Of a DNA stretch of 64,000 nucleotides, positions 6,286-63,551 are shown piece after piece. The notes below the pieces were generated by a model that searched no databases, had not been told where the DNA came from, and saw nothing but the letters and a program-made list of their open reading frames with translations. Both the position numbers and the translations under genes were made by a program. Source of the DNA: Halichondria panicea (Eukaryota > Porifera > Demospongiae > Suberitida > Halichondriidae); NCBI RefSeq assembly GCF_963675165.1, contig NC_087377.1:14194198-14258197 (forward strand). Direction: 5' to 3'. The stretch's first letter is position 1, and every line of letters begins with the position of its first letter.

Positions 6286-8648
6286 ATGTGCCATTTACAG
6301 ACTGCTGTGCACGTCCAGAGTGTATTACACCTGCTGATCCTATGCCTTCTTATAGTTGAAGGTCAGTTATAATCATTATACAATTGACTTACATATAGGA
6401 GGGAGTGTACGTAAAGCTTGGAATTCATTACCTCGCTGTTTTTACCTCATTCTTATCTCTCAGCTGCTATGCATGTTGCATGCTAGCCTCCCCTGAATAA
6501 AATGCCTGCTACTGACTGCTTGCGCATGCGCAAAATTATTGCCTGTAAAATGTCCTGTAATACAGAATTTATCACAGAAATATCCTGACAATTGAAAGTC
6601 ATACACAGAGCTATTTTAGCTAGCTATATATAGCTAGAGAGAGCTGTATAGGTTTGTTGTACAGCTATTTTCTCTGATAGACTTTTCCCAAAGTTAGTGT
6701 CTGATGGGGGTGGCCTGTTGAATAGAGTTGTCAGCTTTCACCGGCTTCGTTCACAAACTGTTGCTGGCTGTGAGTCTTTTCTTAGCATAGTAGGCTAAGG
6801 GTATATATATAGCTGTCAGACTACCATCGGATGGGCTAGAAACCCTTCAATCGAACTTTCTATCTACTTCCTTCAATCTACTTCCTGCATGACGTCATTG
6901 TTTTACTGACCATAAACGTTGTTATCCGGATCCGCCAGATGGTTAGCGCATGCACAAGCAATCGATACCAGGCTATAGTTGTATGCATGTACATTGTTAT
7001 ACTCATCATGATAATTATGTGTATATATACATGTATAGGTATAACACCTTTTGTGTCTCTCACAGTTGATGGAGGAGGGAGTCTGGTTGGTGAACAATGT
7101 CCAGGAAAAGTCAAACTCTTCTGTAAGGGTGTAGATCTCTCTATTTTAAGATGGAGATATAATGGTGGAAATGAAATCTACTCATCAACCACTGACTTGC
7201 CAATGATCTCAATTCTGTCTAGTCCTGCTTTTGTGTCCGTAGAGTTAATTAATGTCACACAAACTCCAAATGATCCAAGATTCGGACAGTTTACTTCAGT
7301 TCTAATCGTGGATATTGCTCAACTTCAAGCTCAAAATATAGCAAGTATCAATTGTGGGGACCCTTTAACAATTGATTCCAAACCAGTTAACGTGATTACT
7401 CTCCAACCGTCTGTTCCCACTAGTCCCACGATAACTGCTGTGACTGCTACCTATAAGTTTGGCCTTTTGATGACCCTTGAAGTATCATGGATGGAGTTGG
7501 TTAGTACATTATCACATAATTATATGCAATGACAGTCTTTTACAGGAAGAAGTTTGCCTGGAATTCAAGGCCTCGTTTGTATACATGCTGAATCTAACTA
7601 GTCAACTATTACCACCCACTGTCATTGTGGTTGACCGAATTAGTTGCAGAGGCGGAATGTGCGTTGGACTATTTTCAAATATTTCAGAGAATGTAGAGGA
7701 GTACATTCTGTCACTGAGTGCTGGAAATGACATGGGATTAAGCGAAGACTCTACATATCAAAACACAATACGTAAGTTACTTTAATTTATAGATGTGATT
7801 ATTTTCATGTTTATGTAACTGCATAGAGCAACAAAGTGATCAATACTTCACTCCTGAAATCTTGAATTCTACAAGCTGCGAAATATTTGTTCGATGTGTG
7901 TCAACAGATACAAGTCTAAACAATGCTACATGTTCTGTGTTATATGGTATGAATGCCAGCACTGTCACTTTTCTACTTAACACAAACACAAAATTACGTG
8001 TTTTAAATGAACTTCAGTCAGCTGTAGTGTCACACTTATTCGTTTTCTCGTTGATGGTTGATCACATTTTAAGAATAAATGTCATCAAAGAGACGAGTAT
8101 TTCAGGTAACATGCATGCATAATAACTTTGTGCATGCATGATGATTGACATTCGTAACATGTACATACAGGTACCTGTGAGAGAAAAACGAATGACGCTG
8201 ATATCGATACAATATTTGTCGTCCTTTTCACATCAATTATTGTTGTGGTGTTGATGACGGTGTCAATTATTATAATGTGCCTTTTTGTTGTTGGAATTAA
8301 GGTAAAAACGCATATACTTTTGAGTGTGTCTGTTAAGAGAGCCGGCCATAATAACAAGAGTCTTGTTATTATGACTCTTGTTATTATGGCCGGCTCTCTG
8401 TCACCCATGCATGCACTTAATTGCACTTCATTGACAAGCCATTTTGTTTTGCACGAATTGCTATAATGATTAAAACTCACTCTGAATTACAGCCACCCCG
8501 TTACTCTGTATAAAATTAATTACAATTAATGCATGGTCAGTTCTATTACTTAGCCCTTAACACGATTGCTTACCCTTTTCTATAGCACTGTAACAAAAGT
8601 CAGAAGCCTAAAGAAGAGTATCCAGTGTCAAAAAATAATGACAATTAA
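6286..8648 (+). CDS. R1: Ig/FN3-like single-pass receptor, short tail
   Basis: Six exons by splice site and phase: 6286-6361, 7039-7499, 7546-7771, 7827-8105, 8171-8301, 8586-8648. Their 1236 nt keep frame throughout and give 411 residues. Residues 1-25 form a signal peptide (hydrophobic LLILCLLIV). Exon 2 is Ig-like: Cys46 and Cys54, the LRW motif at 62-64, and a later Cys in SINCGD. Exon 3 ends like an FN3 G strand (LSLSAGNDMGLS). Exon 4 is a second Cys-containing beta-type domain. Exon 5 has one strong membrane helix. Exon 6 encodes a 20-residue tail with EEYPVS and a stop. Several NxS/NxT sites are present. The ectodomain is clearly paralogous to R2. Ligand and function are unknown. Unlike R2-R4 it has a single span and no kinase or tyrosine array. 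The start was chosen because it opens the signal peptide in the phase the next exon needs. Confidence 0.85.
8336..8399. repeat. Perfect 27-bp-arm hairpin in an R1 intron
   Basis: Arms 8336-8362 and 8373-8399 are exact inverted repeats (AGAGAGCCGGCCATAATAAC...) around a 10-nt loop. It lies in the last intron of R1 and could be a tiny MITE. Confidence 0.85.
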
Positions 8649-24685: not shown

Positions 24686-27600
24686 ATGATATGTAGGTAG
24701 AGTCAAGGGCGTTTATAATTATATCTAATTATATCGAGTCACTACCTACATTTTGCACTGTCCCTCGATCTGAGCCAGGCCGTCTAAAATGAAGGTGAGT
24801 TGAGAGGGTTGCTCATAGACGTAGACATGATAGTGCCAGGTAGATCTAGACTAGTATTTAGATTTTTTTGACACTTTTCCAATTATAGATACTGCTAGCT
24901 TGGGTCTCTAATAATAAGTCCAAAGTGCCTGATGGTCTAGAGATCTAGATCTTGTTTACATGAAGAACAATAATCTAACTTTGTCCTTTCATAGAGAGGG
25001 GTTGGAAACGGAAGTGCTGCACATGACCATTTAACATTAATAGTTCTACACAGAGGCCTCGAAAACTATCCGCTTTTCGTCCTATTTTTTGCCAAGTAAT
25101 AAACTTATTCAAAATAAGAAAGTAGACATCTCAATTTTTAACACGCTTATTCTATGAGCCGCGTGTAGTACTAATAACTGACAACACCCAAGACATGAAA
25201 GAAGCTTCACATACGTGCTATTGGTCTTTAACATGTAAGCGTCCTGGTTCTAAAATAGGTATATGAGCACATTTACTAGACTAAGTGGTTTCTTCTCCAC
25301 AGTGTGTAGAAATGGCATTAACTTGGCTACCTTTCAAGCCACGCCCTTTGCAGATAAGGCTGCTAAAGACAGCACAGCAGATGTTCATTCGAGGGTACTT
25401 CCGTTTCCAATTCCTCTTTTTCCTTTATCTCTGGTCCTTTTAATTAACCCATGATCATGTGTAATTTTGATAATTTGATCACCTTATATCTATAAATTTA
25501 TATTCAAGAGCAGTTCTATGTGGCTGGTGGATTTCAGTTATTTTGCTTGCCTGGCTATTATGATGTGCCCTTTCATAGTTATTTATTACGAAATATTCAT
25601 GATGCATGTGACTGTCATGAATGTCATGGATTGGATGCAGGTGTTCATGTTAGTAATGCTATTCATTCATGGTCACTATGTTATTGTTAGATCCCATTTG
25701 AGTGTATTTTGCTATAATTTTAGTACAGCAGTTTTAAGCACCTTTGCAGCACATGAACACAAGCATAAAACCACAATGTACTATTGTAGTAAATTGTGGT
25801 TACTCAAATAGGAGACCATCTGCAGTGCTGTCCAATCCAGTGGTGTACTAAAAGTAGGAACCAGGCCCCTTACACTGCATGCTTGCTTTTTACCCAAGCT
25901 CAATTGAATCAAAGATCAAGCTTTTAATTGTACCAAATACACCAATCAATACCAGAGCATGCAATTTTTTTAGGGAACTACCCTAAGATCCCTTGCAGGC
26001 GCACTTTAATATGTGTGCACATGCGTATCAGCTCCCCTTCTAAACTTTTTCCATGCTCTCTAAGTGATAACTCTCTTCCCACGCCACTGCTATCACTGCT
26101 GTCAATAACTAGTGTTCAAGCTGGCGCTGTGCTAATGCCTCTCGCCATGTTTTTGCTTTCGCTTAAAAGTATTAGAGTGTTATATTAGTATTAAAGTTAG
26201 CTTATCTATATAAAGTCACTGAGAAGAAAAGACTTATTTACATGCATCTATTGTTGTATTATGTGGCTTACCAGGATCTTAAGAAAAAAGAAAATTGATT
26301 CTTCCAGGATCTGTAGTTCAGTGTATATAATATCTAAGAAGAAAAGACCTGTGTACATGCATATTGTTATCTATATTGTTGTTTTGTGGCTTATATACCA
26401 GGCCCTCAAGACAAAGATGATTCTGCCAGGAGGATCTTGGGATATTATTTTCTCACACGTGGGGAATGAGCGCGCATGCGCATTACATCCACAGGAATAA
26501 TTAAAGGGTGTGTCCAAAGAGATCAATTTCACAAATGGCTACTGCTAGCTAGCTGTTTTAACAGATATTTTCTGAGTATTGTAGCTAACAAAAAGCTAGC
26601 GCTTTAGTGCAAGGCTAACTCATATGTTGAATAGAAAGTTTGTGCGGACAGACGATGCTATGAAAGATTCTGAAGAGACTGCAACAGCCTTCAATGTGAG
26701 TCAAACTAGCCATAACTCGAGAAAGAAGCTTTAGTTTGCTAATTCACGAATCAAAATCCAAGAGAATGTGGCTAGAAGCCTATAGAAGCTGTTAGTTTTC
26801 GTTACATTGCAACCGTTGAGCAGTTATAGCTGGAATACACACACACACACACAGACAGACAGACACACACACAGTCAGCTTTACCGTATCCCTCGTGCGG
26901 CTACGCCTCGAGGCATAATTATGTTCGCATTTCAAATTGCTAGTTATTTTTTCTGTGTGATATGAGATAGACCAAGTACACACCTCAGCTCTGGTACACC
27001 ATTCTCCATCTCACGTGAATCTGTGGAGTAGGCCTTATTAACTGCAACCTTGTATAGCTAGATCTATAGTTGTTGTGTTTTTTTGAAACCACTCAAGGAT
27101 GTAGTCCATGTTTACATTGTGGGTTTACATTGTGGTTTACCCATTTGTGTGTGTGTGTTGCAAAGGTGCTTAAAAGTGCTGTACCAGTAGTAGTGATTGC
27201 TCCAACTACTACATTATACATTGTATTGTCATTAACCCGAGGCGCGTGGGCGGCCACGGGTTATAGTAGTCTGTCTGTTTGTTTGTTTGTTTGTGATTGG
27301 CTTTTCTACTTACCTGGATGCTACAGCACTGCGTTTACAGCATGGATAGCCTTCACACAACAATATCTTGGTTTAAATAGTGGCAGATTTTTATGTTAAA
27401 GCTTCTTTGTCGAGCAAAAGCTAAGAAGCTTGAACAAGCTTGTGACTAGGTCTGCTTACCTGGATGTTCTAGCACTGCGTTTACAGCATGAGTAGCCTCC
27501 ACACAACAAGTTAGTACTTTGGATAGTGGCAGCTTTCGTTTTTAAAGCTTTGTTGTCTAATAAAAGCGAGCAAAATGTAGCTTGAACAGAACTTGCACAT

Positions 27601-28094
27601 GCGTTACTTATAACTGAAGTGATCCTGTACCAAGAACGATGGAACAGGGTCACTAAAGTAGAAAGCTTGAATTATAGCTCCTGCTTAGCTGACTGGGATC
27701 CTACTCCACAGGACCTGGAGCCATACTTCTCTGAGACTCCAGGCTTCTTTGCTGTGATCCTAATCCACAGTGCATATAGTACCACTACCTGTTCTCAAAT
27801 GTTTCAGCATGCCTCCAGTCTGGTTTAGTTTTATTGCTCCTTAGTTGCTGTGCAAGTCATACGTGATAACAACATCACTATATATGGCACTGCATTATAT
27901 TTCTGGTTTCTTTATAATCATGTCACCAGCCGAGGGTTTGCACTTTAGTGCTCTAGTTTACAAGGAGATACACATGTAAAACATAATGTAATAGCTAGAT
28001 GCTTAGTCTAATATAATAACATAACTAGAATGGAAGAGAGAAGCTCTAGTTTCTTCTTTTGGCTTTATTCGAGATCCGTTCGTTTCTTGCTGTG
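24686..28094. other. Gene-free stretch with small duplications
   Basis: No supported gene. Inverted TTGGAAACGGAAGT blocks sit at about 25002 and 25396. An imperfect direct duplication occupies 26221-26317 / 26335-26438. A CA microsatellite lies at 26838-26876. A direct duplication of about 140 bp occupies 27309-27445 / 27455-27595. The open frame at 25518-25811 is Met/hydrophobic-rich but lacks any support. Confidence 0.5.
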
Positions 28095-28245
28095 CTTGTT
28101 TGCTGCAAGGCTGCATGGGGGAGGAGCTGGATGTAGGAAAGTGCTGGGATTTTAACGAGCGGCTTCTATTTACTCGAAGAAACCAAAGTAAAATCTCAGC
28201 GCTACATCCAGTTCCTCCCCCTTAGCATTGCAGCAAACAAGCTCA
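28095..28245. repeat. Imperfect hairpin
   Basis: TGCTTGTTTGCTGCAAGGCT with GGGGGAGGAGCTGGATGTAG pairs with its complement 20-30 bp further on (28183-28245). No coding content. Confidence 0.6.
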
Positions 28246-28499
28246 GCACACTGCCCAGCAGCTCCTACTCGAACAAAGCAAGCTGTCTATTACGTTAATT
28301 ACATGGCTGTGTATAATATATATATCCAAATAATTTAAGTTGATGTTGTAGTTTGTAGCCCAGAGCAATCTATCGGTACTATAGCCTGCTAAATACACTC
28401 AAATGCAGTGACGGATCCAGGGGATCTCCCCTTTCAGTCCAGCTATTGTGGCTTTATTATACAGCTACCAGCTAGGTATTTATCAGTTTTCGTAGTTTG

Positions 28500-28895
28500 G
28501 TAGAACCTCGCTAATCCGAATAGAGCCGGACTAGACCCCATCCGAATACATGAAATTTTCCGGATTAACGGATGCCATTAATTGATTATGAATATCATTA
28601 ACGAAGACACTTTTGTACATGCATTATGATATTACTGTGCATGGCCAGAAGGGAATTAGCTGCTAGCTAGAATAGTCTTTTATAAAATCCAATACGGTGA
28701 TGAGTCTTGTGAGAGCTCTCTCTTCGTTTTCTTTGCAGTGGACATTGTTTGAGCAGTTTATAATAAAATTATTGCTGATTCAGCAAAGAAAGTTAGTCTA
28801 TTCTACTGACAGCCCCTCCTCCTTTTCAGTTTGCCGTTTTGTTCGGATTTGCGAGGTTTCAGACTAAAGAGGTCCGGATTAGCGAGGTTCTACTG
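28500..28895. mobile_element. Pogo/Tigger-like MITE
   Basis: The ends GTAGAACCTCGCTAATCCG and CGGATTAGCGAGGTTCTACTG are inverted, with TA after the right end. The sequence resembles the termini of pogo-type elements. No transposase is present. Confidence 0.65.
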
Positions 28896-29124
28896 TAATT
28901 GTACCTGTTGTTTTGATGTATCAACTGCCAAAGGAGTATTCAAAGTCAATGGTTAGCCTATAGGCTAGCTAGTTGATTGTTCGTGGCAGCTAGCTAGCTC
29001 TACGCAAGTGACTTACTAGATTAGGGAAAATCCCATTCTCAGCCAGGGGAAGTCACTTTGAAACCCCCCTTTCATTTTTTTCTAAATCAACCACTGAAAT
29101 AGGTAACCTGCATGTGTGCAGATA

Positions 29125-29556
29125 CCGTAGAAACTAGATTATTAGCGCTTACTCGACTATAAGCGTATCTTTATTTTAGGCTTTTTATACTTCAATTGAA
29201 GCGATTTTCCAGTTATATTGGTGATATCCATCTGTAAGGACTCTCTGGGCACCTTGTCTGATCATGCTGAGAGAATGTGAGACATGATGATGTCCTTTTA
29301 TTCCAAGTTCCTGGTCAATATGAATGTTTTTATAATATGAACTGTAAAATGAACTGTAACATTATAATAGTATGATATAGATCCAGTTAGGGTTGCCTGC
29401 TAGCTCACTTTCTAGCCAGCTTGCGACTCATCACAGAGACATCCGGTTGCTGGGTGGGGCTTGAAATGACTGCATTATAGGCGCATTCTCGAATATAAGC
29501 GTATAGAGCTCTGCTATTGACCCTAAAAGCGCATGCGCTAATAATCCAGTTTCTGG
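29125..29556. mobile_element. MITE (GTAGAAACTRGATTATTAGCGC termini)
   Basis: GTAGAAACTAGATTATTAGC at the left and GCTAATAATCCAGTTTC at the right are inverted. A solo end with the same sequence lies at about 43738-43840. Confidence 0.65.
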
Positions 29557-29814
29557 TAATCTTGCTTATATAAATGGCAAACCCTTGTACTAGGGGAGGT
29601 GGGGTACAGGTGGGGATTTGAACATTATATAACTGCGATGTAAATTCCCTGTCTATATATACAATCATCAGCACATGGCTGCCCATGCATGGGCAATAAT
29701 TATGTCAAGTCAATATAGCTTGCCTTGATAATTTATTGTAATTGTATAGTGGGGTTTTCCTAGGGAAATTTCCTAGCCAGCATGTAACCACGTACATTGT
29801 TCTAATTACCACAG

Positions 29815-32800
29815 AAACATCTCATTCATCTGGGTTACATTGTCCTGGTTGTAACTGCACACTTGACAGCTCAGTCTCAAGGTGGGAAATCAAAACGTCA
29901 CTCGTGCACATGTAGTTGATCTTGTTGCTTTCTTTTAAAGGTACAAATCCATCACTCACACTGACTGTTGAGGGAGGAGGGAGTCTGGTTGGTGAACAAT
30001 GTCCTGGAACTGTCAAGATCTCATGCATTGGAATCGACTTGTCGATTTTAAGGTGGAGATTCAATGGGAGCACAGATGTAGTAACATTTTTCTCAGACAA
30101 TGTGGCACCTTCTCCATTCACAAATAATCCAGCATTTATAAGTGCCAAGCTACTGTCTGCAGCACCAGATCATCTGGATCCAAACTTTGCTAACTTTTCT
30201 TCAGAACTTGTTGTAGATGTGTCAAAACTGGAGACAGAGAGTGTAACAAGTATTACTTGCGGTGAGCCAGATACTTTCAAAATGATTCCAGTAGATGTTG
30301 AGATCATACAACAAACTGAGCCAGAGAGTCCCAATGGAACTAATGTGACAGCTCTCTATGAAGATGGATCCTTGACAGATGTCACTGTTTCTTGGGAAAA
30401 ACTGGTGAGCTATTAACAAACGACGAGAAAAGTTTTAAATGAAGTACCTTATTGTTACTATTATTAACGGCTACTAATTTTAGCGAATTTATAATTAACG
30501 CTAAATTAAGTACACACTAATAATAAAACGCAATTAAAAATTGTGAATCTCATTAAAAAAATAATAATAATAATTTTCCTTTCTTTTTTTCTAATGTACT
30601 ATAGTATAATGTAATGTACCATCAAGGTAATGTTTTTTTGCTGCAGGAAGCACGTTGTCCTGTATTTCAGTCTTCTTTAGTTTATCAAGTTCAGTTTGGC
30701 TTTAGTGTCGTTGCAGTAAATCACACAAGCTGTGGAGAAGTGTGTATCGTCAACTTCCAGAATTTTTCTGATGCTTCTGAGGAGGATAGGGTATCACTAT
30801 CTGCTGTGAATGTAATCGGGGCCAGTAAAGTTGTTGAACATTCAACCCTCATCGGTGTGTTTAAACAATCATGTATATGACCCATAATTATTACCTTGTG
30901 CATAATTATAATTACGTTATTCTATTTTCAGTGAAACAAAGCAGCTTCTACTTCACACCTATTTTCCTTTCAAACGATTGTCTGTTTACTTGTGAATGCT
31001 TGTCAAATGGAAGTCTGGATATAGACAGTTGCAATGTGTTGTACACGACTGACTCGATGTACAGGGATCCAACGATGATTGTTTCTCCACTCAATACGCA
31101 ATTTGAAATAGCTGAAATTACCACTGACAGAGTCTATTATTTTGAGTTCTCCACGTCTGTGAATGTCACTCTGCTTGTTAGGAACAGACTTACTGAAAAA
31201 GCAATATCAAGTGAGTATATATCACACAATTACAGACGTTTACAGACGTTAACTAATCTCTGTTTTCAGGTCCGAGGTTCAGTGCAGTGGTTATAGTTTT
31301 CCTTGCTCTAACCATTTTGCTTATCACTGTCGGAACAGCATTTGGTATAGGTATACATTATAATGTAAAATTGCTTTACGTCTTGCACATTTTTGCAGTT
31401 ATCTGTGTTACAAAGCCGCAGGGGATTAAAACAAAGATTGTTTTGTTGGTATATCTCTTGGGAATGTTGAGCTTGATTTTTCTAGTTGTTTTCTCCATTA
31501 TCACTGGTGTTCAACAAGGTAAGTTTTTACTGAGTTAAATATATTTTCTAAGACATCTCTCTGTAGACACATGCAGTCTGGATTGGAGCAGAGCACGTGA
31601 TGCATTGGTCATCGTAGCCTTTCTGTTTGCTCTATTTGGAAATGCTCTTCTGGTCTGTTTCCTGCTTGCCTCTTGCCAACAGAAAAGTAAGGCATCTTTA
31701 ATTCTCAAATTAATAGCAATCAATTTAATTTGTGCCTGTGCCTGTTGTCAGAGTCCCAGATGAATTTGCAGTTTAGCGAAGATTCCCAGACCAACATGCA
31801 TAGGTAATAATATTATAATATAGTAATTATAGGTATACAATTAATATTTTTGATTTCCTCAGTATCTCAGAACAAACGGACGCAATAGCTGAGGTTAGTA
31901 GTTGCTTCTATCAAAACTATTGTGTATGTGTTGCATAATTATATAGGAGAAGACAAACAACACTTCAGGGGATAATGCACATTCGGAGAATATAAACGGA
32001 GAGCTGGAGTCTAGTCAAAACAAAAAGAAGAAATTCACTGTCTACAAAGTTGTGGTCAGACTTGAGGATAGGTCGTACTTTGTGTTCAGAAGGTGATCAT
32101 GCAATGCTGTCCTTTGTTAGATCATTATGTAAAGTGTTGTAACTGCAGGTACAGTGAATTTGAAACTCTTTTTGGCGAAATTAAGAAGAAGTACCCATCC
32201 AGGGATAAACTGGTGAAATTGCCGGGGAAGAAAGTCTTGAAGAGCAAATTTGATCCGAATTTGATCGATGAACGTCGCATTGGGCTGCATGATTTCATTA
32301 TCAACCTCATGAATGTATGCTTCAGTTGTAATAGTGACTTGTAGGTATGTGAGCATATTATACACACTCCCAGATCCCCAACATCCTAGAGTTTCTCCCG
32401 GTTCGTGAATTCCTTGCCATCGACGACCCACGTTCAGCACTCCCCATCAACGACGAGCCGGCAGACGAACAGAAAGTGAAAGAGGCGGCAAGGGGGGAGC
32501 TTGGTGAGAAGGAGGACGCCACTGCCAAGATCACTGACCTTGACCTGCTCAAAGTTATTTGGAAGGGAACCTTCGTGAAAGTAGGTATAGCTTGTGAGAG
32601 TTAATTTACGGTAAAGCCTGACCTCCCATGCAAAATGTTGCTACAAATCACCTATCAGCCTCAAAATTACAGTCAGACAATGGACAAACTCACTTATATT
32701 TCAAGGTCTATACCTATTGTAGTAGTCATAACCAGCACGCTTACACGTTACATGTTCCAATAGCTCTAAAACAGCCTTGGGAACATATAACTTTATTGGA

Positions 32801-35800
32801 AAGTCTCTTTTACTGGGTGTGGTCAGTCATTAGCAAGTACTACACGTGGCTCATGGACTAGGCGTTTTATAAATAGCTGAAAGAGATGATGTCTCGAGGA
32901 AACACAGCTTTGGGAGTTACCCGGCAAAAATGTGCTTAATAGCCTCGTTCATAGGGCGTAACGCGGATAATTTTCGAGGCTCCACTGCAGATTCAATGTA
33001 AAATCATCACGTGCACCACTCCGTTTCCTATCCCTCTAACTCTTCAATCTATGATAAAACTAAGGATTTTATGTGTGTATAATCTTACGCCTGATTTTTT
33101 GTATAGATGAAATTGTATGACTAACTTTAATAATTATGTTGAATTCATGTCTAAACAAAATTGCATGTTGTCAAATCAAAACAGTCCTTTTCACAATAAG
33201 CTGCTGACACAGTAATTTATCTGGCTGGAGTCCCATTTTGGTGGCTGTGTGGGGAATTTTTACCGATGTAAAATTGATGATCTTTACAAGTACATTTAGT
33301 AGCCATTTCTTCTAATATAAGGATGCTATTAAATGCATCAAAGGAGGTACGACACGGTCACTTGACCAGCCAAAAGGATTATGAATCTCATTAACTTGTG
33401 CATGATGAAGACTGTGTACTTTGATAGTGGATTTGGTGTTTTTAGTGTAATTCCGTTTTAGAGTGTTTATTCAGGATATAGGATCACTGCCAACATCTGA
33501 GCCTTGGTTCTTACAACAAACCTAATCTCTACTTGTAAAACTCTAGTTACTAGCCAGCAACAAATTCACTGAGTTTTATGCTCTCTTTATGGCGCTTACT
33601 TGCCACCAGCTGAAGAGTTTTGGAATGCATTTTTAACGACTTCTTTGTCTTTCTTGCCTTCAATCAAGAAATAGCAGCGACGTGAGCTTAACCGAGTGTC
33701 GTACCTCCTCTGTAAATGCACCAAGTTTGATGTTCTGAATCAAAACTACACCTGAGTTGTGGTAGCTTGTATACTTGTCTACTAATATGGCTCTAATATG
33801 GCTCAGCTTGACTCTTCTATGACCAACCAAGAGAAGAAAAAGGTTTTTCTCACTGAAGTAGATTGGGAACTCTTAGAATTCAGCTAGATCTACATACACT
33901 TTATGTTGATTTAGTGAGTGCTGTATAGGGGGGTATATCACAGGTGTAGTTTCTTTCTAGAACATCAGACATCAGAAGGTTGGACGCGCGTCATCCACCG
34001 TCAGGTTTTATCACGTGCGCTCATAAGAATCTAATTAAAATGACCGATTAGGTACCATTAGGCACCTCGATGCTCCACTGTTTTGTAGGCTGTACAGAGA
34101 CACTGCAATTAAGTAACCAGAAGTGGTCTAGGAGCATTCCCATCGCCCTCTCACCTTCCCTACACTGCTGAAAAGATTCCAAGATGGATCTAGACTAGTA
34201 TTTAGATATTTTTGACACTTTCCCAATTTTTATCTAACAGGATTATAATCTATATGAGCAGAGGAGGTCAGAGCACCATTAATTTGTTTCTCTTTAGCGT
34301 TCTCTAGCTCTTACTTGCACTGATAAGCTTTTACATTCTCACTTTTGACCTCAAAGGAATTCATCACAAGACTGAAGGGCGTCATATGACGCGTGTCCAA
34401 CCTCCTCTGGGTAGAACAAGCTTCAAATTTCTTTTGGCAGCCTTATATGAACTTGGTGACCTTGTAATGATCATCAATTTTACATCGGATTGATAGTAAA
34501 AACGCTCACACAGCTACCAAAATGGGACTTCAGTGGCGACTGACATTAATTTGACAGGCATGCAAATATTTTTTTTTATCGCGAGCCCTGCCTATTGTCA
34601 GGTTTAGCATATTTTGGCCCAGCCCGGATCTTTGATGTATACAGGCACACATGTAGCACCAAGAGTAGATAAGAGTAAGAGTGTTGAACTGCTAGTAACA
34701 GCATTTGCCTGCTCCTGCGTCATCACTTGATATAGTAATCAGTACTAATTTGTTATGTTAGCAACACTTCCCAGAAACCGCACAATCTGTGATTGCGCAG
34801 TTCAGTACTACAAACCACAGACCACAGTTTACTTAACAGCACTCATTAATTGAACAGTGACGACAGTGATGACGCATGTCAAGGTAAATGCGGTTCCACG
34901 ATTACTACAGCAGTTCAACACTCTTACTCTTATCTACTCTTGATAGCACACGTTAAACTTTTAAGAGCATTATTTTAGGGGACTGAGCTCAGTAATTCTC
35001 CTTTCTGAACAATGGCAGACTCCTTCGATTGTGACTGTAGGGGTACGTGTATCTCTAGCCCATGAAGTGGGCTAAATCAGTTAAATTCATTAGTATATCT
35101 ATGGTCTTAGACACTAGTTGATAAGATCTACATGGGAAGTACAGTGGAACCTCCTTTAACAACCACCTCTGAATAAAGGCCAGTTGCTATATAACGGCCA
35201 GACACCCAGGTCCCAAATGAACAGTTTGTGTACAAAACAACCTCTCAACAAAGGCCACCTCTGTATAAAGGCCAAAACATTGTTCCCCAAAGGTGTCCGT
35301 TATAGAGGGGTTCCACTGTACATGGGAAAAGTGCTTCAGAGCAGGTATACTATGGGACTTAGTATACCTGCAAGTTTACTTAGTATACCTAGTATTCCGT
35401 TGTCAAGTAATTGTATTGTAATTGTATTGTAGTCAAGCGGTTTGCGCATGCGCACTAGTATCTAAATGAGTTAGTCACTGTTTTGTCGGTGTCCATGTGA
35501 TTTAGAAGCCCTCAGCTATTTTAGTACCCTCGCTATGCACGGGATACTAAATCAGTGCCTTTGGGCTTCTAAATCCCATAGACACCTCCAAAACAGTGTC
35601 TAACTATTATATAGTGTCCCTCAGCCCTCGGGCTACGATAACGCCCTAGGCTCTAACATAATACGTACAATCATGCGTCCTATAGGAGAACACATGGTAC
35701 AAGGTTCATTTTCGTGGCATGACTCATGCATGTGTATCGATTTATAGAGTAAATGATCGTCTTATTTAATGATAGGCACATAAGAAAGCTAGGTTTGTGC

Positions 35801-38800
35801 ATTCAATAAAGACAGTGTAGAAATTCACTGTGAGATCAGAAGTGGTCCAGAGAGTCTTGTGTTGATGTATAGACTACGTATTTGAGTTTAGATAGAAGTA
35901 ATATAAGCTAGGGTACAGAAGTAGCGCTGGAGACCTTATTTAATTAATAATCATTCTTGTGGCGGTTAGTCACTGCATGTAAGGAGGCATAATAATAGTT
36001 CACTAACAGAGCTTTCCTGTGGGATGATATTAAGCTAGTGCATGCATGGTTTAAAAGGGTTAAATTCTTGTGTTGATGTACAACAAATGTAAACCTGCAT
36101 GTGATCGACAATTCAACACCACTATACCACTACAATGCACATGCAGTGGTGGATCCAGACAGGTTTTCACACAAGAACACACTAGAGATCAACTTACTAT
36201 AGCTAGCAACTCAGCTTGAATGATCGTGATAAGTTACCAGGCTGATTTCGTGCAATTAATAATTATGTGGGCAGGGCTCTCTAATATACGCATGCTCATT
36301 GCTTAGGAAAAGTGATGACCTATTTTTTAGTAAAATTAGCTGTTTTGGAACCTCCCTTTCAACATTCCTGGATCCGCCACTGATGCACAATGATTGATTT
36401 CGATTGAACTCAGTTATAGCCCGGAATAATCGGACATTATTTAACACAGATTGTTTTACTCTTCCTATATAATCTTATCAGATATATATCTTTAATGCTA
36501 TCACATGATCTCTATGCAGCCAATCAGCTTATCTAAAGTAGTTACCTGACCATGCTTTAAATAACTTAATTCACACTGAAGTATAGTGTTCTTTAAGTTA
36601 CTTTGGCACACAGATTTAATGTTGGCTAGGTGTGTTCTATAATATCCACTGCACATGTGCACTCTAACCACACATATTATACTCTCTCACAGGTATACCT
36701 GGGTCGACACAAGGAAACTGGTGCTTTCTATGCCATCAAAGTCCTGCAAAAGGAAGCAATCATCAAACGCAGCGAGGTTGAACTCATCATGGCAAAGAGA
36801 AGCATCGCGATCCACCCGTTTCTAGTAGGCCTACATTGCTCCTTTCAGACAAGGACCAAGCTATATTTTTTGTTGGAATATGTAAATGGTGGAAGGCTGT
36901 CCTCTTATCAGGAAAGGCTGGAATATGTAAATGGTGGAAGGCTGTCCTCTGATCAGGAAAGGCAGAAAAATAATGTGTTTGATGAGCGCAGTGCAAGGTG
37001 AGTAGTCAGACGCCAGTTATTATTATGCTAAGCGGATTATTTAGGTAGCTGCATAGCCTAAACTCAGTTTGTTAGCTCTTATTAAGCTCCTATAACATAA
37101 TAATGATCAACTCTACGTAAATGTAGTGTATTATTATAATTATGCCTTCAAATTAGTTCAAGTTCCTATGATACTGCCGCCGATGACCTTACTGCATATG
37201 TTGGTTTTTGAAATCCTGCATGAGTGTCGTACAGTGTCTGTCTGACGTTGCTAAGAAATGGACAAAGAAATTCAGCAAGAGCATAACTTAGATTCCAGGA
37301 TTCGAGCTGGTTCAAATAAAGGGTGTGGTCTCATACATATTTACGCAACACTAGAGCCACACTTTTTTCCTTTAAAAAGGTGTGGTGTCTATGAGATTTC
37401 ATTTCTGAATCACAGATTTGGTTCGAGATTTCATGGAATATTCCGGATTGATTCCCTTTCCCCGTTGAAGCCGTCATAATTATGACGGCCACTCTATTGG
37501 TCATTTTCAAACATTTGCTGTGCACGCTGTGTTGGAGCTATGCGCACGCTGTATGTACCAGCACATGCGCATTGAGCTGCTCTTTCACGTGGTATCTTTA
37601 ATATACTTCCTCGAGGTACAGTAATGTCGAAAGAAAAGTGACCGTTTCAAGATCTTCGTAGTACAACCTCAGCGAGGTTCTAGAGCAGCTAGACAGTGAG
37701 AATATCAATGCTTATGGTCTTGTTGAGTGAGAGAACAGTGACTGGGATCATAGCTAGATAAGAAGCTACCTCAAGCTAGAAAATATAGAGCCTGAAGGCC
37801 TGAGGAAGAAGCTCTTGCGATGGACCGACTTCTTGGATCTGGTAAATCTAGAGTAGCATCTGTAGTCTTGATAGCTTCAGTACAACTGTATTTAGGCTAT
37901 AGTTAGTACAGCAGTGGACATCACCATTGAACTTGTAAACCTGAGTGTAGGTGAAGAAAACATTTCCCGGGAAAAGGGCGTCTGCTGATACGACCTCGCA
38001 GATAACTTTCTGCAGATCCTGATTGAACCATGTCACTGTGAGAACATTGAGAACACTGCATGTCTTTAGCCACTCTGTGCCTTCATACAATATTGTTTGT
38101 GTACATGGATTGAGTATGTTTGTAAACAATTGCTAATTAGTGGGGGTGCATGGTCAGTTGCTAGGTAACGATGATGGTGTCAAGATACCTCTGGTGTCTG
38201 CGCTACCTGTAGAAAATAGTTACAAGTCATTTCAATGTATGGTTCATGAGATATGCATTTTTAAAGAAAATTGTGTTCTCAGAATTATGTCTCCTCTGAT
38301 AACGTTTTAGTTTGTGGGGGGGATGGGTGTGGCTTGTATCATTTATTCTGTATTTTCTTGCTTTAATTAAAACGGGGAAAGGGTTAAGGCTATATATAAT
38401 TTATGAGATTTCACGTTGTTGCCAGCCCCTCGGTTCGATCTTACTCGAGAAAAGACTCTTAATTGTCTCTCACCCTTGTGAGCTTTCCTTTGTTACAATA
38501 CAGTGTAGCAAGTGCTATAGATACTCATAGCAAGTCTTTAGAAAAATCTTGAACCTCTGCATGGATGGCTGGATATTGATGAGAATCACACAAAGCAAAT
38601 CACACGAAGTATAAACAACATCAGTGGCGTAGCCAGAGGGGTGCAGAGGGTGCTCCAGCACCCCCCTCTGGCCTCAGACTCTGCTCCACAAGTTCCTTTT
38701 TTACTATTAAACTAAGCTGATATGAGAGAACTAGAGCTAGCTCTATATATATTGCACGACGATCAACTCAAAACTCCACCTCCAACTAGCTAGCTCCACT

Positions 38801-41800
38801 TCCAAATATTCATTCATCATGCGCAAAGCCACGTGGGCTGAGCAGACCAAGGTCCCCCACAGAGTTGCAGATTGTTCAGCAGCTATCACCATCATCATCA
38901 TGTCACTCTTTGAGTATTTTTCAGTTGAGCCCAGTTCACAGAGCAGCACTCCAACTGTAATTCACAAGCAGAAGTACCTGGTTAGCAGCTGCATGATTTA
39001 ATTGTCACAAAACAATGCATTTTCTAGGACATCTTCAGATGAAGATGTGGCTTAACCACCAGTACCCTCAAAGCAGCAGTACCCTCATTTCTTTAGCCAG
39101 ATTGCGTTAGAATCAATCTCAGAACATGTAACAACACATTTTCTGGGGGAATGCCCCCAGACCCCTGTTGGGGCGCATTTTGCTCCGCGTACTGGTAATT
39201 CGGACAATCCATTCATCCATGCAGCACCCCTCTCTCTCAAATCCTGGCTACGCCCCTGAACATAGACATACACAGTTACTTCAGCTATACTGTTCTTAGG
39301 TACTCTAGTACAAATAAGTATAGATCAATGCTTGCATGTAGAGTGCATGGAAACGGAATGCGGACACGGAATGCGGACGCGGAAAGCGGAAACGGAAATA
39401 TCTTAGCTGTCTAAAGTTAACGACCATTATACCATTCTGTGTTTTTTTTTTTACACAGAATGGTAATGATGAGCAAAAAACATGCACAGAATGGTAAATA
39501 TGAAATAATTATGCCTCGGTGCGCATGCGCAAGCGAGGTATACGGTAGTGTGTTTGTGTGTCTGTCTGTGTGTGCATGAGTGTGCAGACTATACTATACA
39601 GCTGCTCAAGGATCAATCAAGTGCAAGTAAGAGTTCTATAGGCTTCTATAGTCATGTTTTCTTGGATTTGCAAAAATTAATAATGCTTCATTCTCGAGTT
39701 ATGCCTAGTTTTGCTTGCTTGGAATGCCATTGCAGCCTTTTCAGAAGAGTGCGTAACAAAACTTGCATGTTCACCGCGCGAGTGTTGCTACTCTAATTGT
39801 AGTTAGCTCTGCACTAGAACACTATAAGCTATTGGTAGCTGCAAGAGCGAGAAGAGAGCTGGCAAGGCTCTGCTGATCCATGCAGCCATTAATTTTAGAC
39901 TTGAACTTTTGGCATCGATCATTTTTAACAGCAATCATGGTCGATTATTACCCACTCCTTGAATTTGCATGCAGCAAAATTAATTAATGCAAAAATTCAT
40001 CACAATGATTGTGTGTATAGCTTTGGCACCTCCACCGAGGCATCACCACCCGCGATGCTTTCATTCATATAAACATGAAAGTATGAGAGTGAATGAAGTG
40101 AACGTTTCTGCATGATTTAGAAGCCCAAAGGGCTGGTAGTATCTCGAACGCAGTGCCCTGAGGACTTCTAAATCACGTGGAAAACTTCCTAAACAGTGTC
40201 TAAGCATTTTAGAGCATAGCAACCATGAGTATTTAGCCAATCAGATTTGAATGTTCTTATCTCTACATGATTTCTACATGAAAGCACCTTGTCTCTAGCT
40301 ACCTTACCTAGTTGCTCCTTGAAGCTATAGATAGATTTGATAGATTTGATAGGTTTCCCCACAGCACCCCTCTACAAATACATCTGCCTACAAAAAAATT
40401 AATGCTTTTATGTTCATTTATTCATGTCAAAAACACAGAATGGTAATGGTCGTTAACTTTAGACAGCTGAGATATTTCCGTTTCCGCTCTGCTTTCCGCC
40501 TTCCGTTTTCCGTTTCCTTCTTTTCCATGCACCCATACTTATAATTATGCTTCATAAATTATCTTATTGAGGCTGCTGCATGAGGAAGATATCTCATGTG
40601 TCGAACTTGAACTATTTATTACTCCTCTGATTTGACGGCACTCATTATGTAGACACTACTATAGATATTGTTGAAGTGTAAATGGCTCTTGTCTGGAATC
40701 TCCTCACCCGGCTTTAAAGACATGTCTTCACTTCAATTTAGATTGCTAGGCAACCAAAACACGTTCAATATGTCAAGAATAAATAATTTTTGCCACATCA
40801 TCTAACATTAGAATTTTTCTTAGTACGTACATAATGGTGTGCAGTGAAAATTAATCTGACAGTTAAAAAGTGCTGAATCAGCGAATAAGCCTAGCGCTTA
40901 TAGTATGTCCCGTGGCTGGACTCATTGCATAGGGGAAGTACAGGGGGTGGGTGTAGCTCATTGCTAATTCAGTAAAAAACGCTGTTGTCACTGTTCATCC
41001 ATAAATCATAAGAAGACATAGTGAGGCAGCAAAGAAAGAAATGGGCGTACAGTTAAGAAAAAGTAAGGCCTGGTTTGGGAAATCGTATGATCCACAAGGA
41101 TTTTTATGAACGTGGGCGATATGTAGCCCACAATCGTGACGTAAGGTATTCTCCCACGCATTCAGAGTTAATAAGACTGTACTGTACTATATATACTGTA
41201 TACTGAGACAAGCTGTGCTGCAAGTCAGATCAGAGAACCAGCGTGGCCAGCTCTGGTGGCAGTAGCTACCTGCTATATGATAATGATGACTTGATCTATA
41301 CTATAGACTATAATTATAGCATGTAGAAAGACACAAGAAAAGGTGCATGATAGTAGAATAGGATAGAATCTGAACACACAATCTAGACTAGTAGATCATC
41401 TAGCTAAGCCTAAGGTATAGCTAGCTCTAGTGCTTGCAAACTTCCAGTTCCAAGTCCATGTCCAGCTTGCTGCAGGCAAAGTTTTATTAGTCATAGATCT
41501 CTGCGTGGGCAGTCCAACATCCCTAGCTCAGCATGCCCACGCTCATTTTCACCCTTCTACCACCCTTCTACCCTCACGCGACTTCCTGATACAGGCTCTC
41601 CTTTTTCCTAACTCTACGTCTATATATTTCTTTCTTTATTCCTCCAATTAATACAGTCTTATTGAACAATTGTGATAAAGAACAGAAAAAAAGAAAAAGG
41701 AGAGCCTGTGTAGAGGCTAGATAATCTACTCAGCTTGTGATGTCAGTTAGCTCTAGCTGGTATAGTTTAGTAAAACGGGTTCGTTATGGCGAAAATCGAA

Positions 41801-42731
41801 TTATTAGACAACATTTTTCACTGTTTCGACAACATTTTTGCTGGTTGTTACAGGCAATTATTTGATAATTATTTGTTTGTGAAATACATGAACTTTTACC
41901 AGGCGCACTTTGATGTCTAACGGAGTTCGGCGACTTGCTGTAAAGTTTTAAAATAGCCCTATTAACTCAAAAACACTCTTACAATTGCGACTTTATAACT
42001 AAATAAGGGCATGCACTATATACTGCCAGTGACTGGACTATAACATAATTTTATTATTATTTACCCGTTACAGATTCTATGCTGCCGAGATCACCTCCGC
42101 CCTCGGGTACTTGCACAGTCTCAATATTATTTATTGGGATCTCAAACTTGAAAACATTCTACTAGACACTAACGGGCATATCATGCTAACAGACTTTGGA
42201 CTCTGCAAAGAAGAGGTCAAATTTGGAGAGGCAGTAACAACTTCTGGCACTCCCTCATACCCTGCCCCTGAGGTGCTCAAAAAGAAAGAGTACGGTTACA
42301 GCGTCGACTGGTGGTGTCTGGGCGTGGTAACCTACGAAATGCTGTACGGGCTGCCACCGTTTTATTCTGAAGATGTTGCTCAAAGGCACAGTAAAATTTG
42401 TCAGATGTCACTAGATCTGCAACTACACATCACGTTCAGTGCTCGAGACTTGCTCGAAAAATTGCTACAGGACAAACGTGATCGATTAGGTGAGATTGGT
42501 GATGCTAAAGACATCAAGGCTCACTTATTTTTCAAGTCCATCAACTGGGATGACCTGTTTGATAAGCGATTGAAGCCTCCTCCGTTCAACCCTCCGGTAA
42601 AGAATGCCCTCAAACTCGGACCATTTGGGTCCGAGCTTACTGCCAAGGCTATTTCTGGCGCACAGAAACACGGCACAGTGGGTTTGCCATGTGTGAGCAT
42701 TGCTGACGACACTTTTAGTGTAATGAACTAG
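29815..42731 (+). CDS. R2: Ig/FN3-like three-pass receptor joined to PX + SGK3-like kinase
   Basis: Exons by splice site and phase: 29815-29881, 29941-30404, 30647-30854, 30932-31210, 31270-31350, 31399-31518, 31567-31686, 31752-31803, 31863-31893, 31947-32092, 32149-32314, 32374-32580, 36693-36997, 42074-42731. They total 2904 nt, frame intact, about 967 residues counted from 29815. No ATG lies in the first exon, so an upstream exon is missing from the model. Order: hydrophobic leader, Ig-like exon (SLVGEQCPG, LRW), FN3-like exons, helices at about 344-364, 380-402 and 419-440, a linker, PX domain (504-610, FRRYSEF), kinase (about 637-967). PX domains of SGK3 bind PI3P on endosomes. The kinase resembles SGK3 but several catalytic positions are changed. 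Alternative: a separate SGK3-like gene starting at the ATG near 31760. Confidence 0.75.
31947..32580 (+). other. PX domain and linker exons of R2
   Basis: Three exons (31947-32092, 32149-32314, 32374-32580) encode KKKKFTVYKVVVRLEDRS, then FVFRRYSEFETLF, the Lys/Pro loop (KLPGKKVLKSKFDP) and the C-terminal helices (ERRIGLHDFIINLMN). The Arg-Arg-Tyr motif is the PI3P-binding signature of PX domains. The first of these exons also holds the acidic/polar linker leading from the third membrane helix, so receptor tail and PX domain share an exon. The last exon ends with the first kinase strand. Confidence 0.9.
32581..36692. other. 4.1-kb intron of R2, packed with MITEs
   Basis: It contains an outer inverted-repeat element 33229-34529 (AGTCCCATTTTGGT ends) enclosing two others, 33341-33712 (GGAGGTACGACAC ends) and 33973-34409 (copy of 24249-24685). 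After these come 34660-34942 (CAAGAGTAGATAAGAG ends), 35142-35319 (CAGTGGAACC ends flanked by TA), 35471-35606 (TTTAGAAGCC hairpin, relative at about 40115-40205) and 36144-36382 (CAGTGGTGGATCCAG ends). No exon-like open frame was found. Confidence 0.7.
38632..39258. mobile_element. Element with CAGTGGCGTAGCCAG ends
   Basis: CAGTGGCGTAGCCAGAGGGG at the left pairs with CCTGGCTACGCCCCTG at the right. Same family as 23340-23896. No transposase. Confidence 0.7.
39343..40532. mobile_element. 1.2-kb element with ~100-bp inverted ends
   Basis: GTGCATGGAAACGG, Pu-rich GGAAACGGAAATATC and GTTAACGACCATTA at the left are repeated inverted at 40440-40532. Internal sequence includes a TTTAGAAGCCC hairpin at about 40115-40190. 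Confidence 0.65.
40985..41719. mobile_element. Truncated inverted copy of the 21692-22461 element
   Basis: Long stretches match 21692-22440 in reverse orientation. The right tip GTGTAGAGGCTA is intact at 41719. The other tip is missing. Confidence 0.7.
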
Positions 42732-56060: not shown

Positions 56061-59000
56061 ATGAAGTATCATGCAAGACACTTTGTGATCTTTCTGCTAA
56101 GCTGGTTACACTACTGTCAAGGTATGTTTAATGATCGATTATACTCCGAGTACTCTTTATTGACTTGTGTATATAGGAACCTCAGTAAGTGTAATTACGG
56201 ATGATGGAAAAGATACACTTTCTGGTTCGTACTGTCCTACTACTGTTAAACTTATCTGCAATGTTACAAGTCTTCCTCATTTGCGATGGACGTACAATAC
56301 CAGCAAAAACATAATTGTTATTTTTCACTCGGATAGTGTAGTACGTTATCCAATTGCAGCATTTCCATTTTACCAGTTAACACAATTTAATGTATACAAA
56401 AATAATATGAATCGGACTCTGATTAATGCTTCAACGATCCTCACTGTTGATCTGTCAGATCTGAACAAACAGAATATTGAAATTATTTCTTGTGGTTTTT
56501 CTGCTCTGGACAAGACAGTGCCAGTGAATATCAGCATTTTGCAACCATCCTTTCCTTCTGTCAGCCCCCAAGTTTATACAGCTGTCATTGTATGCTATGA
56601 GTCTGGACTTGTATCTAGTGTAGATGTATCATGGAGAAAATTTCAGGTACATATAATATAATAACTATAGAAAGAAATGCAAATGCAAACCCATGGTTCC
56701 TGTAGCAACCAAATTGTCCTGAATATGAAAATTCCCAAGAATACCTCATCAATGTCACTGGATGTGGGTGGACGTGGCTCAACCACAGTACCTGTCAGGA
56801 TACTATTTGCTCGTCCGTTTTCAGTAATTGTACGGAGAACCTGAGTAAAATTACCCTACAAGCCAAGATCGCTGACATTGAGAGTGGACAAGTAGTTTTT
56901 CCCACATCTGTAGGTGAGGGCATTAATCTAGTAGTTTTTAGATGTATCGGCTTTTTTTACAGATTACAATAATCGGTACTTTAGAGCTGCTGTTAACCAG
57001 TCATCTAGATGCCAAATTCATGTGCAGTGTTTACCCATGAGAGGAGATGTTAGTATACATCAAATGTGTACCATTCGATACACTACAGATCCAGATTATG
57101 GAAATCTATCAAATCCTATCACAACTCTAGTTGGCACAGCACCTGTCTCACTTTCACTTACTACTCCTGGTACCATGTACTACTTTGAGTTCTCTGTGTT
57201 GATGAATGATACCCTGTTGATTGTGGAACGAATACAGTACACGATTACAGAATCAGGAGGTATGGCACGTGATTAAGAGGTTCATGTGTATTCACTTCAA
57301 TTAGCACAAGAAGTTCATGCACTTGTGTTCATTTTCTTACCGTATTACCATACACCTACAGAATCGTTCCAGTTGGGTGCAAGAGAAGGCGTCATCATTG
57401 CCATTACATCAGTTTTCTTAGGATGTTTTACTGTGCACACTACTATCATGATATTGTGCCATTTAAAATTTAGCAGTAAGCAATTCTTGTCACTCAGACG
57501 ATGGTACATAATGATATCATTGCAGGTGATGATCATACTGTTTCCAGATTGAAAAAGTTAATTACTAACAAACGAATTCAAATCTCGATAACACTGATTC
57601 TCCTGGTGCTGTTTATTGGGTGTAGCACTCTGCTGACAACCTTTGCCATTATTTCAAACGGTATATTGGAGTATTAATATTGTGCTAATTTGATAGAATC
57701 AGAGTGTTTAGTATGTGTTTGAGTGTTTTCTTTTCAATAGATATGTGTTTCACAAACCAACAAGTTCCCAACAGTTTGCTTGATGCATTGTTAGTAATTT
57801 CAATCATTGGGATAGCATCCATTCTCCTTTATTGGGTCTCAGTGGGATACACAGTTTATAAACAGAGTACAACAGAAGGTAAGATATTACAGTTGTACAT
57901 GTATAGACTCATATTTTTCATGCAGGAAACAAAACCAAGCTTCAAACAATGTATGTTCTCCCTCAGTAACAATGTTCTGTTTATGTGACATACAATAATT
58001 ATAGGTCTTGTTGCGACAGCAATCTTCACAAGAACAGCAAATCAAAAACGCATGAACGTAATATCCAAGAGGTAATTTGTTTATGGTTTATGATGTAGAT
58101 TGTATTTACGAAGGATATATACCACATGCAGGAAAACTATAACACTCTGAAGCACACCCATAGTTTAAGGCCATCAGACAGACATGACATACAGGACGAA
58201 ATTTACGGGAAACTTGAAGAGGTTTTACTATCATGTATATACTCTCGAATAAATATTAGGGAATAAAATAAGCATTGCATCAATGTCCATTTTTGGTAAA
58301 ATTTAATAATTATTAAGTTTGCCATACAACATCCTATAAAGGTTGGAGACTGGAGAGTTTATAGTCGGCAAAATAACACTGAGAGTCATATTATGTGTTT
58401 TGTCACTTGCATGTGCATGTAATAATTATTTTTTATGGAGACAAATTTTTCAAATAGAATATAATTGGGGGGGCCAGAAGAATAATATTATTTACTCTGT
58501 CAATTTCCCCCCTAAATTAGACATTTGAGTATCTCCCTATGAACGTCAGTGTGTATGAGCCACTGAGGGCTGGAGAAAAATCGCAACCTGTTCATAACGT
58601 AGCCAATGCAAGTTACTCCCATATTGGAAGACAATCAGAACCTGCTGATACTCATGTTCTATGCAACATGCAGATCCATAACATGAGAGTAAGACGTAAT
58701 GTCATAATTATGCATAATATAACCTTGATGAACCTCAGGATGATTACGATGTTCTGGATAGAAATGAGATGTCCTTGTGTACCAGTGCCGATATCCATGA
58801 TCCATGTGAATCGGTGTATGGCAATCTTGATGAGGTAAGCAAAGTCTATATAATAATTATATCCATGCAATTCAAAACTATACGAGCACGCATTTGAAAC
58901 TATTTTTGTCACACAATCTATAGGCCTCCATTGAACCCCATGGTGATGGTGTCTATAGTCAGCTAAGGCCAGGGGAGAAGTCAAGGCCAGTACCAAACAT

Positions 59001-60916: not shown

Positions 60917-63551
60917 ATGGTGAAATATTACTTTCTACTCTTTATTCTAAGCTGGTTACACTACTGCCAAGGTATGTGAAACAATTATAATTATAAATTA
61001 TTCAAGCTAAAAATTATTACAATCCCTTGTGGATGGACAATGAATAATTATAGGAACTTCAGTAAGTGTAATAACGGATGATGGAAAAGACACACTTTCT
61101 GGTTCATACTGTCCAACAACTGTTAAGCTTATCTGCAATGTTACGAATTTTCCTCATTTGCGATGGACGTACAATACCAGCAAAAACATAATTGTTATTT
61201 TTAACTCGGATAGTGTAGTACGCTACCCAATTGCAGCATTTCCATTTTACCAGTTAACACAGTTTAATGTATACAAAAATCATATGAATCGGACTCTGAT
61301 TAATGCTTCAACGATTCTCACTGTTGATCTGTCAGATCTGAACAAACAGAATATTGAAATTATTTCTTGTGGTTTTTCTGCTCTGGACAAGACAGTGCCA
61401 GTGAATATCAGCATTTTGCAACCATCCTTTCCTTCTGTCAGCCCCCAAGTTTATACAGCTGTCATTGTATGCTATGAGTCTGGACTTGTATCTAGTGTAG
61501 ATATATCATGGAGGAAATTTCAGGTACGTATAATATAATAACTATACAGAAAGAAATGCAAATGCAAACCCATGGTTCCTGTAGCAACCGGATTGTCCTG
61601 AATATGAAAATTCCCAAGAATACCTCATCAATGTCACTGGATGTGGGTGGATGTGGCTCAACCACAGTACCTGTCAAGATAATATTTGCTCGTCCGTTTT
61701 CAGTAATTGTACGGAGAACCTGAGTGAAATTACCCTACAAGCCAACGTTGCTGACATTGAGAGTGAACAAGTAGTCTATCCCACATCTGTAGGTGAGAGC
61801 TTTAACTTGGTAGTATTACATTTATCGACCTGTTTTTTTTATTTACAGATTACTATAATCAATATTTCCGACCTGCTGTTAATCAGTCGTCGAGGTGCCA
61901 AATTCATGTTCAGTGCTTACCTATTCATAGATATTTTAGAGGGAATCAAAAGTGTACCATTCGATACACTACAGATCCAGAGTATGGAAATCTATCAAAT
62001 CCTATCATAAATCCTGTTGGCACAATACCTGTCTTACTTTCACGTATCACACCTGGTGCTATGTACTACTTTGAGTTCTCAGTGTTGGTGAATGATACCT
62101 TACTGATCACAGAGAGAATTGAGTACATTACAGAATCAGGAGGTACGGGAATGAAATTTTCTTGAGATAATGCCACTTTAATCAGCAAGATCTTGTCTCA
62201 TAGACGTGTGCATGCTCATTTTATACTGCACACATGCACCTACAGAATTGTTTCAGTTGGGTGCAAGAGAAGGCGTCATAATTGCCATTGCATCAGTTTT
62301 CTTAGGATGCTTTACTGTGCACACTATAATCATATTGTGCTTAAATAGTAAGTATATATATATATACGTTAATTTTTGTCACTCATCAGTATTGGCATAA
62401 TAATAATAGTATTATAATAATTATTGCAGAGGGTCATCCTACAGTTTCCAGGTTCATTTCTAACAAACACATTCAATTCTTGATGACACTGATCCTCTTC
62501 ATGTTCTTTATTGCGTGTGGAACTCTGTTGACAACCTTTGCGATTAATTCAAATGGTGCGTATTGGACTTGTGCCAACTCTCGTTTGCAATACTTTGTGT
62601 GACATTGTTTTTAATACAGATGTGTGTTTATTGAATGAAGAAGTTCCCAACAAATTGCTTGATGCAATGTTAGTACTTTCATGTGTTGGGATAGGAATTC
62701 TTCTCCTCTATTGGGTCTTTAGACGATATAAAATATATAGACAGCATACTAAAGGTAACTTAGAGAGAGTAATTAATATTGTATACATCTTTTCATGCAT
62801 CTTATTTTGTGTATAGGAACCAAAAACAAGCTTGAAAACACGACGTATGTTCTTCCTATGTAGTACAGTTCATTATATTTTAATATAGGTCTCATTGCGA
62901 CTATGCTCTTCATCCGAACACCTCTTCACAAAGAGCTCAATATAACGCTCAAGAGTCACCTGAGGTAATTAAATTGTGTTTCAAATTAAGACAATTTATT
63001 TTGCTATTCAGAAGACACCTGATTCTCAAGAGTGCCAACAATTGCATCCCGAAGGCGTTAATGAAATGGTTCCAATGCCTAAGAAGCCTTCGAATGGCAG
63101 CCAGCTAATGACGACACCTAGTAGGAAATGTCCACCCTCTACACTTCCCAAACAAAGAAAGTTAGGTCAGCATTCCAACACTGTTTTGTACGATGAGGTT
63201 GGTTTAGCGAAAATCAAAGGCAATGTCTCGGATATGACAGAAGTTGAGTTGAAAGCTAACGAGTCTTACGGGCACATAGACAAAAGGTTTTCAACTGCCA
63301 AGAACAACGTGACTGCTTGTCCATTATGTTCAACACCAGCCAGCAAAATCCAGCAAGATTTGTCATTAAGTCATCAGTACAGTGAGATTAAAGCGAAACC
63401 GAAGGGTGAGCATCCTGAGCTGAATGCTATTGAGCAGGAGCAGATAGAGTTGAAGTGTAATCAGTCGTATTGTCAGCTAACAAGTGCTGTGGGTCAGATA
63501 GGAGGATGTGAACCACTGCACGAGTACGACTATATATACGTGGACTCCTAA
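60917..63551 (+). CDS. R4: Ig/FN3-like three-pass receptor with a different tyrosine-rich tail
   Basis: Ten exons: 60917-60971, 61054-61523, 61585-61792, 61849-62142, 62246-62347, 62430-62555, 62620-62754, 62817-62844, 62889-62964, 63012-63551. Total 2034 nt in frame, 677 residues. Leader MVKYYFLLFILSWLHYC. Ig-like and first FN3 exons are nearly identical to R3. Three membrane helices correspond to those of R3. The tail has no alignable repeat of R3 and is mostly one 180-codon exon with tyrosines at 558 (VLYDEV, ITIM-like), 584 (YGHI), 621 (YSEI), 651 (YCQL) and the C-terminal cluster EYDYIYVDS (670, 672, 674). A CPLCSTPASK stretch near 601 is Cys-containing. Probably a tyrosine-phosphorylated receptor (inference). 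It is a tandem duplicate of R3. Confidence 0.85.

Follow-up and report, generated by a model that had tools for sequence, protein, structure and literature searches.

The window analysed here, a stretch of 64,000 nucleotides from the breadcrumb sponge Halichondria panicea (C1:14194198-14258197 of a 131 Mb assembly), includes a gene whose predicted product begins with an extracellular receptor part and ends with a PX domain and a kinase. Positions given without a prefix are those of the window. Between 29815 and 42731 the gene, referred to below as copy B, has 14 coding exons on the plus strand, with standard GT/AG borders, consistent phase and 965 codons ending in a single stop. Exon 1 (29815-29881), a hydrophobic leader which is 98.5% identical in copy A, carries no ATG. 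A start exon upstream of it (ATGAAG, Met-Lys; 24789-24794, plus strand) is proposed, and with this exon the gene would span approximately 24789-42731. The proposed exon shows a signature, taaaATGAAG/gt, common to the window copy and copies C, E and G, and yields the N-terminus MKKHLIHLGY of the NCBI protein P0001. In copy A this signature was not found in the 6.8 kb upstream.

Exon 2 (29941-30404) encodes an Ig-like domain with a C-W-C pattern and the beginning of the next domain, exon 3 (30647-30854) an FN3-like part and exon 4 (30932-31210), placed by the phased exon chain, the membrane-proximal extracellular part. Three membrane helices follow in exon 5 (31270-31344), exon 6 (31399-31518) and exon 7 (31567-31686), all assigned from hydropathy, a structure model and phase. 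Two mini-exons, exon 8 (31752-31803) and exon 9 (31863-31893), form the beginning of the cytosolic tail. The PX domain is distributed over exon 10 (31947-32092; linker and first PX strands), exon 11 (32149-32314; PX core) and exon 12 (32374-32580; PX end, linker and Gly-loop), and the kinase continues in exon 13 (36693-36997; N-lobe) and exon 14 (42074-42731; C-lobe, tail and stop). Exons 10 to 14 are supported by Pfam matches and by phase; exon 14 is also placed by a tree of the last exon. Exon 13 of the window copy contains an in-frame 45-nt tandem duplication which A and C lack.

The 54 nt between exons 5 and 6 (31345-31398) are open in frame in the window copy and were read as coding in the initial annotation, which drew a single first membrane exon at 31270-31518. 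They are recognisable as an intron because their length differs among the copies (57, 54, 52 and 55 nt in A, B, C and E) and because the NCBI proteins P0001-P0003 lack them. Apart from this exon, which is in fact two, the proposed chain of exons in phase from leader to kinase stands, and the three membrane helices remain once the intron is removed. In a structure model of copy A the helices occupy residues 344-373, 377-408 and 417-458, with mean pLDDT of the blocks of ~40-76. Since an odd number of helices follows the signal peptide, the C-terminus, with PX and kinase, presumably lies in the cytosol.

All 15 aligned family members share the C-W-C of exon 2. For Ig and FN3 there was neither a Pfam match above the cut-off nor recognition in a profile search of PDB sequences (best E 0.34). 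An Ig-like sandwich, a weak match, is seen in a low-confidence structure model and hints at an Ig fold. The FN3-like region, whose fold is not confirmed, has a model pLDDT below 50; its label comes from FN3-type motifs, and the exon itself from phase and from the copies.

The receptor part of the gene is a member of a clustered array. At least 55 related Ig-exon matches, of which 25 are on the plus strand and the others on the minus strand, lie within 0.66 Mb (C1:13.88-14.54 Mb). Within the window there is a related receptor gene at 7065-8645 (P0005, LOC135351494, 399 aa), apparently short-tailed and with a single membrane helix, and the family is also represented by two further diverged Ig-like exons, at 56203-56649 and 61080-61526. 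The array also contains five scattered short stretches (42 aa, 73-76%) that match the beginning of the last kinase exon, at C1:14077639, 14099133, 14159617, 14168451 and 14493423.

Genome searches identified two further complete loci on the same chromosome, copy A (C1:14011805-14025365) and copy C (~C1:14400494-14410211). Neither frameshifts nor stops occur in the exons read of A, B and C (C from exon 2 on), and the splice borders are kept. Each of the two is a single predicted protein at NCBI: copy A is LOC135351103 isoform X2 (980 aa) and copy C is LOC135351084 isoform X2 (994 aa), the model of C having extra residues where exon 12 meets exon 13, a border with a weak donor. Copy B was not among the NCBI proteins found, and the database looks incomplete for H. 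panicea. An assembly duplicate is ruled out: A, B and C are on one contig, and in exon 2 copy B shares 94.6% identity with A and 79.1% with C. Synonymous divergence between A and C is 0.58 in the Ig exon versus 0.08 in the membrane exons, a difference which hints that the loci exchanged sequence by recombination or gene conversion.

Other copies are partial or carry different tails. Copy E (LOC135351367, 551 aa) keeps the receptor, helices and junction exons and terminates just inside PX. Copies F and G encode three-pass receptors that lack PX; where the PX-kinase would be, copy G (LOC135351061, P0004; L056/L057) has a long cytosolic repeat tail resembling KYRFSLGPLKFGRSEDTTP. Copy D (L053:4932-7027) is an orphan pair of pseudokinase-type kinase exons, and no PX or three-pass receptor exons were found in the surrounding 10-kb stretch.

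A protein domain search, suggested in the initial annotation as a check, scored PX at 48.5 bits and Pkinase at 184.4 bits, both above the Pfam cut-off, whereas neither Ig nor FN3 reached it. The closest solved structure to the kinase is SGK1 and the best protein relative an SGK1-like protein of Amphimedon (57% identity). The order, PX followed by an AGC kinase of SGK type, is that of the SGK3 family. In the tree of the last exon the kinases of A, B, C and D form a single clade (support 100) on a long stem (0.455), which adjoins the canonical H. panicea SGK exon (C1:17683570; support 95) after the Amphimedon split. Judged from these relationships, the PX-kinase is derived from the sponge's own SGK. 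The last exon of the ordinary SGK, at L054:4529-5245 (minus strand), has intact motifs, and the 5 kb on its 5' side consist of N.

The kinase differs from the SGK3 family in the motifs on which catalysis and regulation depend: intact catalytic motifs, the T-loop TFCGTPE and the hydrophobic motif, all characteristic of the family, are not found in A, B and C. In these three copies YRD is YWD, the last Gly of the Gly-loop is Val, the alphaC Glu is Lys or Arg, the T-loop is altered and the hydrophobic motif is missing. In place of the first Gly of the loop B has Trp and C has Arg, and the DFG of A is DLG. By comparison, the Gly-loop, the alphaC Glu, YRD, the T-loop and the hydrophobic motif are intact in all 25 SGK rows of alignment A1. 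The module is nevertheless constrained, with dN < dS in PX and N-lobe in 3/3 pairs (p 0.00016-0.036), in the C-lobe in 2/3 and in the ectodomain in 3/3. From this constraint together with the lost motifs, we infer that the PX-kinase module is kept but is probably no ordinary enzyme. As in pseudokinases, a kinase fold is combined with loss of conserved catalytic motifs, so the tail is probably a pseudokinase, and we think it likely that ordinary kinase function is lost. The suggestion that an extracellular signal is passed by this protein to a functioning kinase module is thus not supported, several catalytic and regulatory residues being lost in all three full copies.

Among the alternatives, the one that fares best is a fused receptor with an unusual but catalytically active kinase. 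B and C retain the catalytic Lys as well as the Asp of HxD and that of DFG, and loss of activity is therefore deduced from the other residues; the N-lobe is constrained, and the Arg before the catalytic Asp, lost here as YWD, can also be lost in active kinases. Against this stand the Val for the last Gly of the loop and the Lys or Arg for the alphaC Glu in all three copies, the Trp or Arg for the first Gly in B and C, DLG in A, the altered T-loop and absent hydrophobic motif, the long stem branch and the 45-nt repeat that B carries in its N-lobe exon. We regard an active enzyme as unlikely. In the PX domain the putative PI3P-contact residues are kept, and the domain may bind PI3P.

That receptor and PX-kinase belong together is indicated by the pattern of length differences among the copies. 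In pairwise comparisons of A, B, C and E over exons 2-14, 62 of 62 exonic gaps are divisible by three versus 18 of 71 gaps in short introns; introns above 400 nt were left out, copy E contributes exons 2-9 only, and the six comparisons of four copies are not independent. At the junction itself, the gaps in exons 8-10 are multiples of three in 22 of 22 cases versus 3 of 18 in introns 7-9. On these counts a chance chain of exons is rejected. The two in-frame mini-exons noted earlier between helix 3 and PX recur in A, C and E with phase unchanged, although they vary in length (58, 52, 55 and 64 nt for exon 8 and 40, 31, 31 and 49 nt for exon 9 in A, B, C and E, differences of 3n). Copy E has lost PX, the kinase and the ATG of exon 8 yet keeps their frame, and they would therefore belong to the receptor tail. 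Taken separately, the junction exons (p 0.09-0.27) and the membrane exons (p 0.055-0.29) have dN/dS not significantly below 1.

The reading of receptor, PX and kinase as one continuous gene is well supported at the sequence level, because it is preserved at three loci, the junction exons stay in frame at a fourth, and A and C are each a single protein in the NCBI predictions. The isoform numbers of these models may point to RNA support. The original proposal of a receptor continuing in frame into a PX-kinase thus holds, with the frame open in A, B and C, and very probably the fusion is produced as one protein.

The competing arrangement, which we consider improbable, is that of two adjoining genes duplicated as one block, a short-tailed three-pass receptor and an independent SGK3-like gene whose start would be the exon 8 Met (~31760). 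This Met codon, a possible start of a separate protein, is retained in A, B and C; reading exon 7 on into intron 7 (31687-31765) gives an open tail of ~25 codons in the same three copies, a possible short-tailed isoform, and short-tailed forms such as P0005 occur among the other clustered receptors. However, E has lost the Met and still has exons 8 and 9 in frame without PX and kinase, exons 7 and 10 lie a mere 260 bp apart, and NCBI joins the two parts in A and C. The ordinary SGK N-terminus, ETW before PX, is present in the four SGKs inspected (P0006, P0011, P0066, P0018) but in none of A, B, C and E. The receptors F and G likewise splice their third-helix exon to a phase-1 exon, the residue similarity here being mostly not significant.

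Least probable of all is a decaying gene, in which the fusion would be a dead by-product of tandem duplication that gives no product: the degenerate kinase, the exon 13 repeat, the orphan kinase exons of D and the five short kinase fragments nearby would suit it, but the absence of frameshifts and stops in A, B and C, the retained splice borders and dN < dS in ectodomain, PX and N-lobe in all three pairs speak against it.

Our preferred explanation is a three-pass receptor with a captured SGK3 tail, PX and degenerate AGC kinase, copied to at least three loci. It builds on the architecture, the shared frame, the conservation in the copies, the origin of the kinase and the loss of catalytic and regulatory residues, which are established from the sequences, and we give the explanation as a whole a probability of roughly 0.7. 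The fusion gene is real, conserved and apparently lineage-specific, with a pseudokinase-like tail. In the proposed history an SGK would have been duplicated in the Halichondria lineage and the duplicate joined behind a receptor of the large clustered Ig-like family; the captured SGK3 kinase would then have lost its catalytic residues, and receptor and kinase would have been copied together into at least three loci. In one study, contact between PX and kinase keeps SGK3 inactive and PI3P activates it (PMC8318898). For the fusion protein, ligand-driven internalisation could bring the PX domain to PI3P on endosomes, where the pseudokinase might not act as an enzyme but influence receptor sorting or SGK/PDK1 signalling as scaffold or competitor. 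Such an endosomal sorting or scaffold role is tentative. Equally speculative is the broader idea that clustered, fast-diversifying recognition receptors of the sponge captured SGK3 as a PI3P-reading pseudokinase tail, so that the receptor would sense its own endosomal arrival and modulate SGK/PI3K signalling, perhaps in self/non-self recognition.

If correct, this would show how an endosomal kinase from the cytosol can become the tail of a receptor and persist there as a pseudokinase, and it would tie a large candidate recognition-receptor array of a sponge to phosphoinositide signalling. The genes named here may be used for testing self/non-self or microbe recognition in sponges. The architecture had been thought undescribed, and in agreement with this neither a receptor-PX-AGC kinase protein nor any AGC kinase built into a transmembrane receptor was found in the open-licence literature searched on the genomes, receptors and kinases of H. 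panicea, on SGK/PX, allorecognition clusters and receptor kinases of sponges, and on tandem Ig receptors, PX pseudokinase receptors and AGC fusions, which is no proof of absence. A paper on the immune transcriptome of H. panicea lists other receptor classes (PMC8242945).

In several ways the gene resembles known systems while differing from each of them. The Hydractinia allorecognition complex is a clustered Ig-like recognition locus, and the sponge array, known from one assembly, similarly comprises dense, diverged Ig-like receptor genes with varied tails; the Hydractinia complex is not known to include a PX-kinase tail. Receptor kinases and pseudokinases of the tyrosine-kinase type, such as HER3 and ROR, have extracellular recognition, membrane and cytosolic kinase or pseudokinase parts. 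The fusion has the same three parts, but its kinase is of AGC type, it has three membrane spans rather than one, and a PX domain lies in between. SGK3 is a soluble PX-AGC kinase of endosomes and shares PX and AGC kinase, in the same order, with the fusion gene. In contrast to SGK3, the predicted fusion protein would be anchored in the membrane behind an Ig-like ectodomain by three in-frame helices, its SGK N-terminus is replaced, and its kinase lacks catalytic and regulatory residues.
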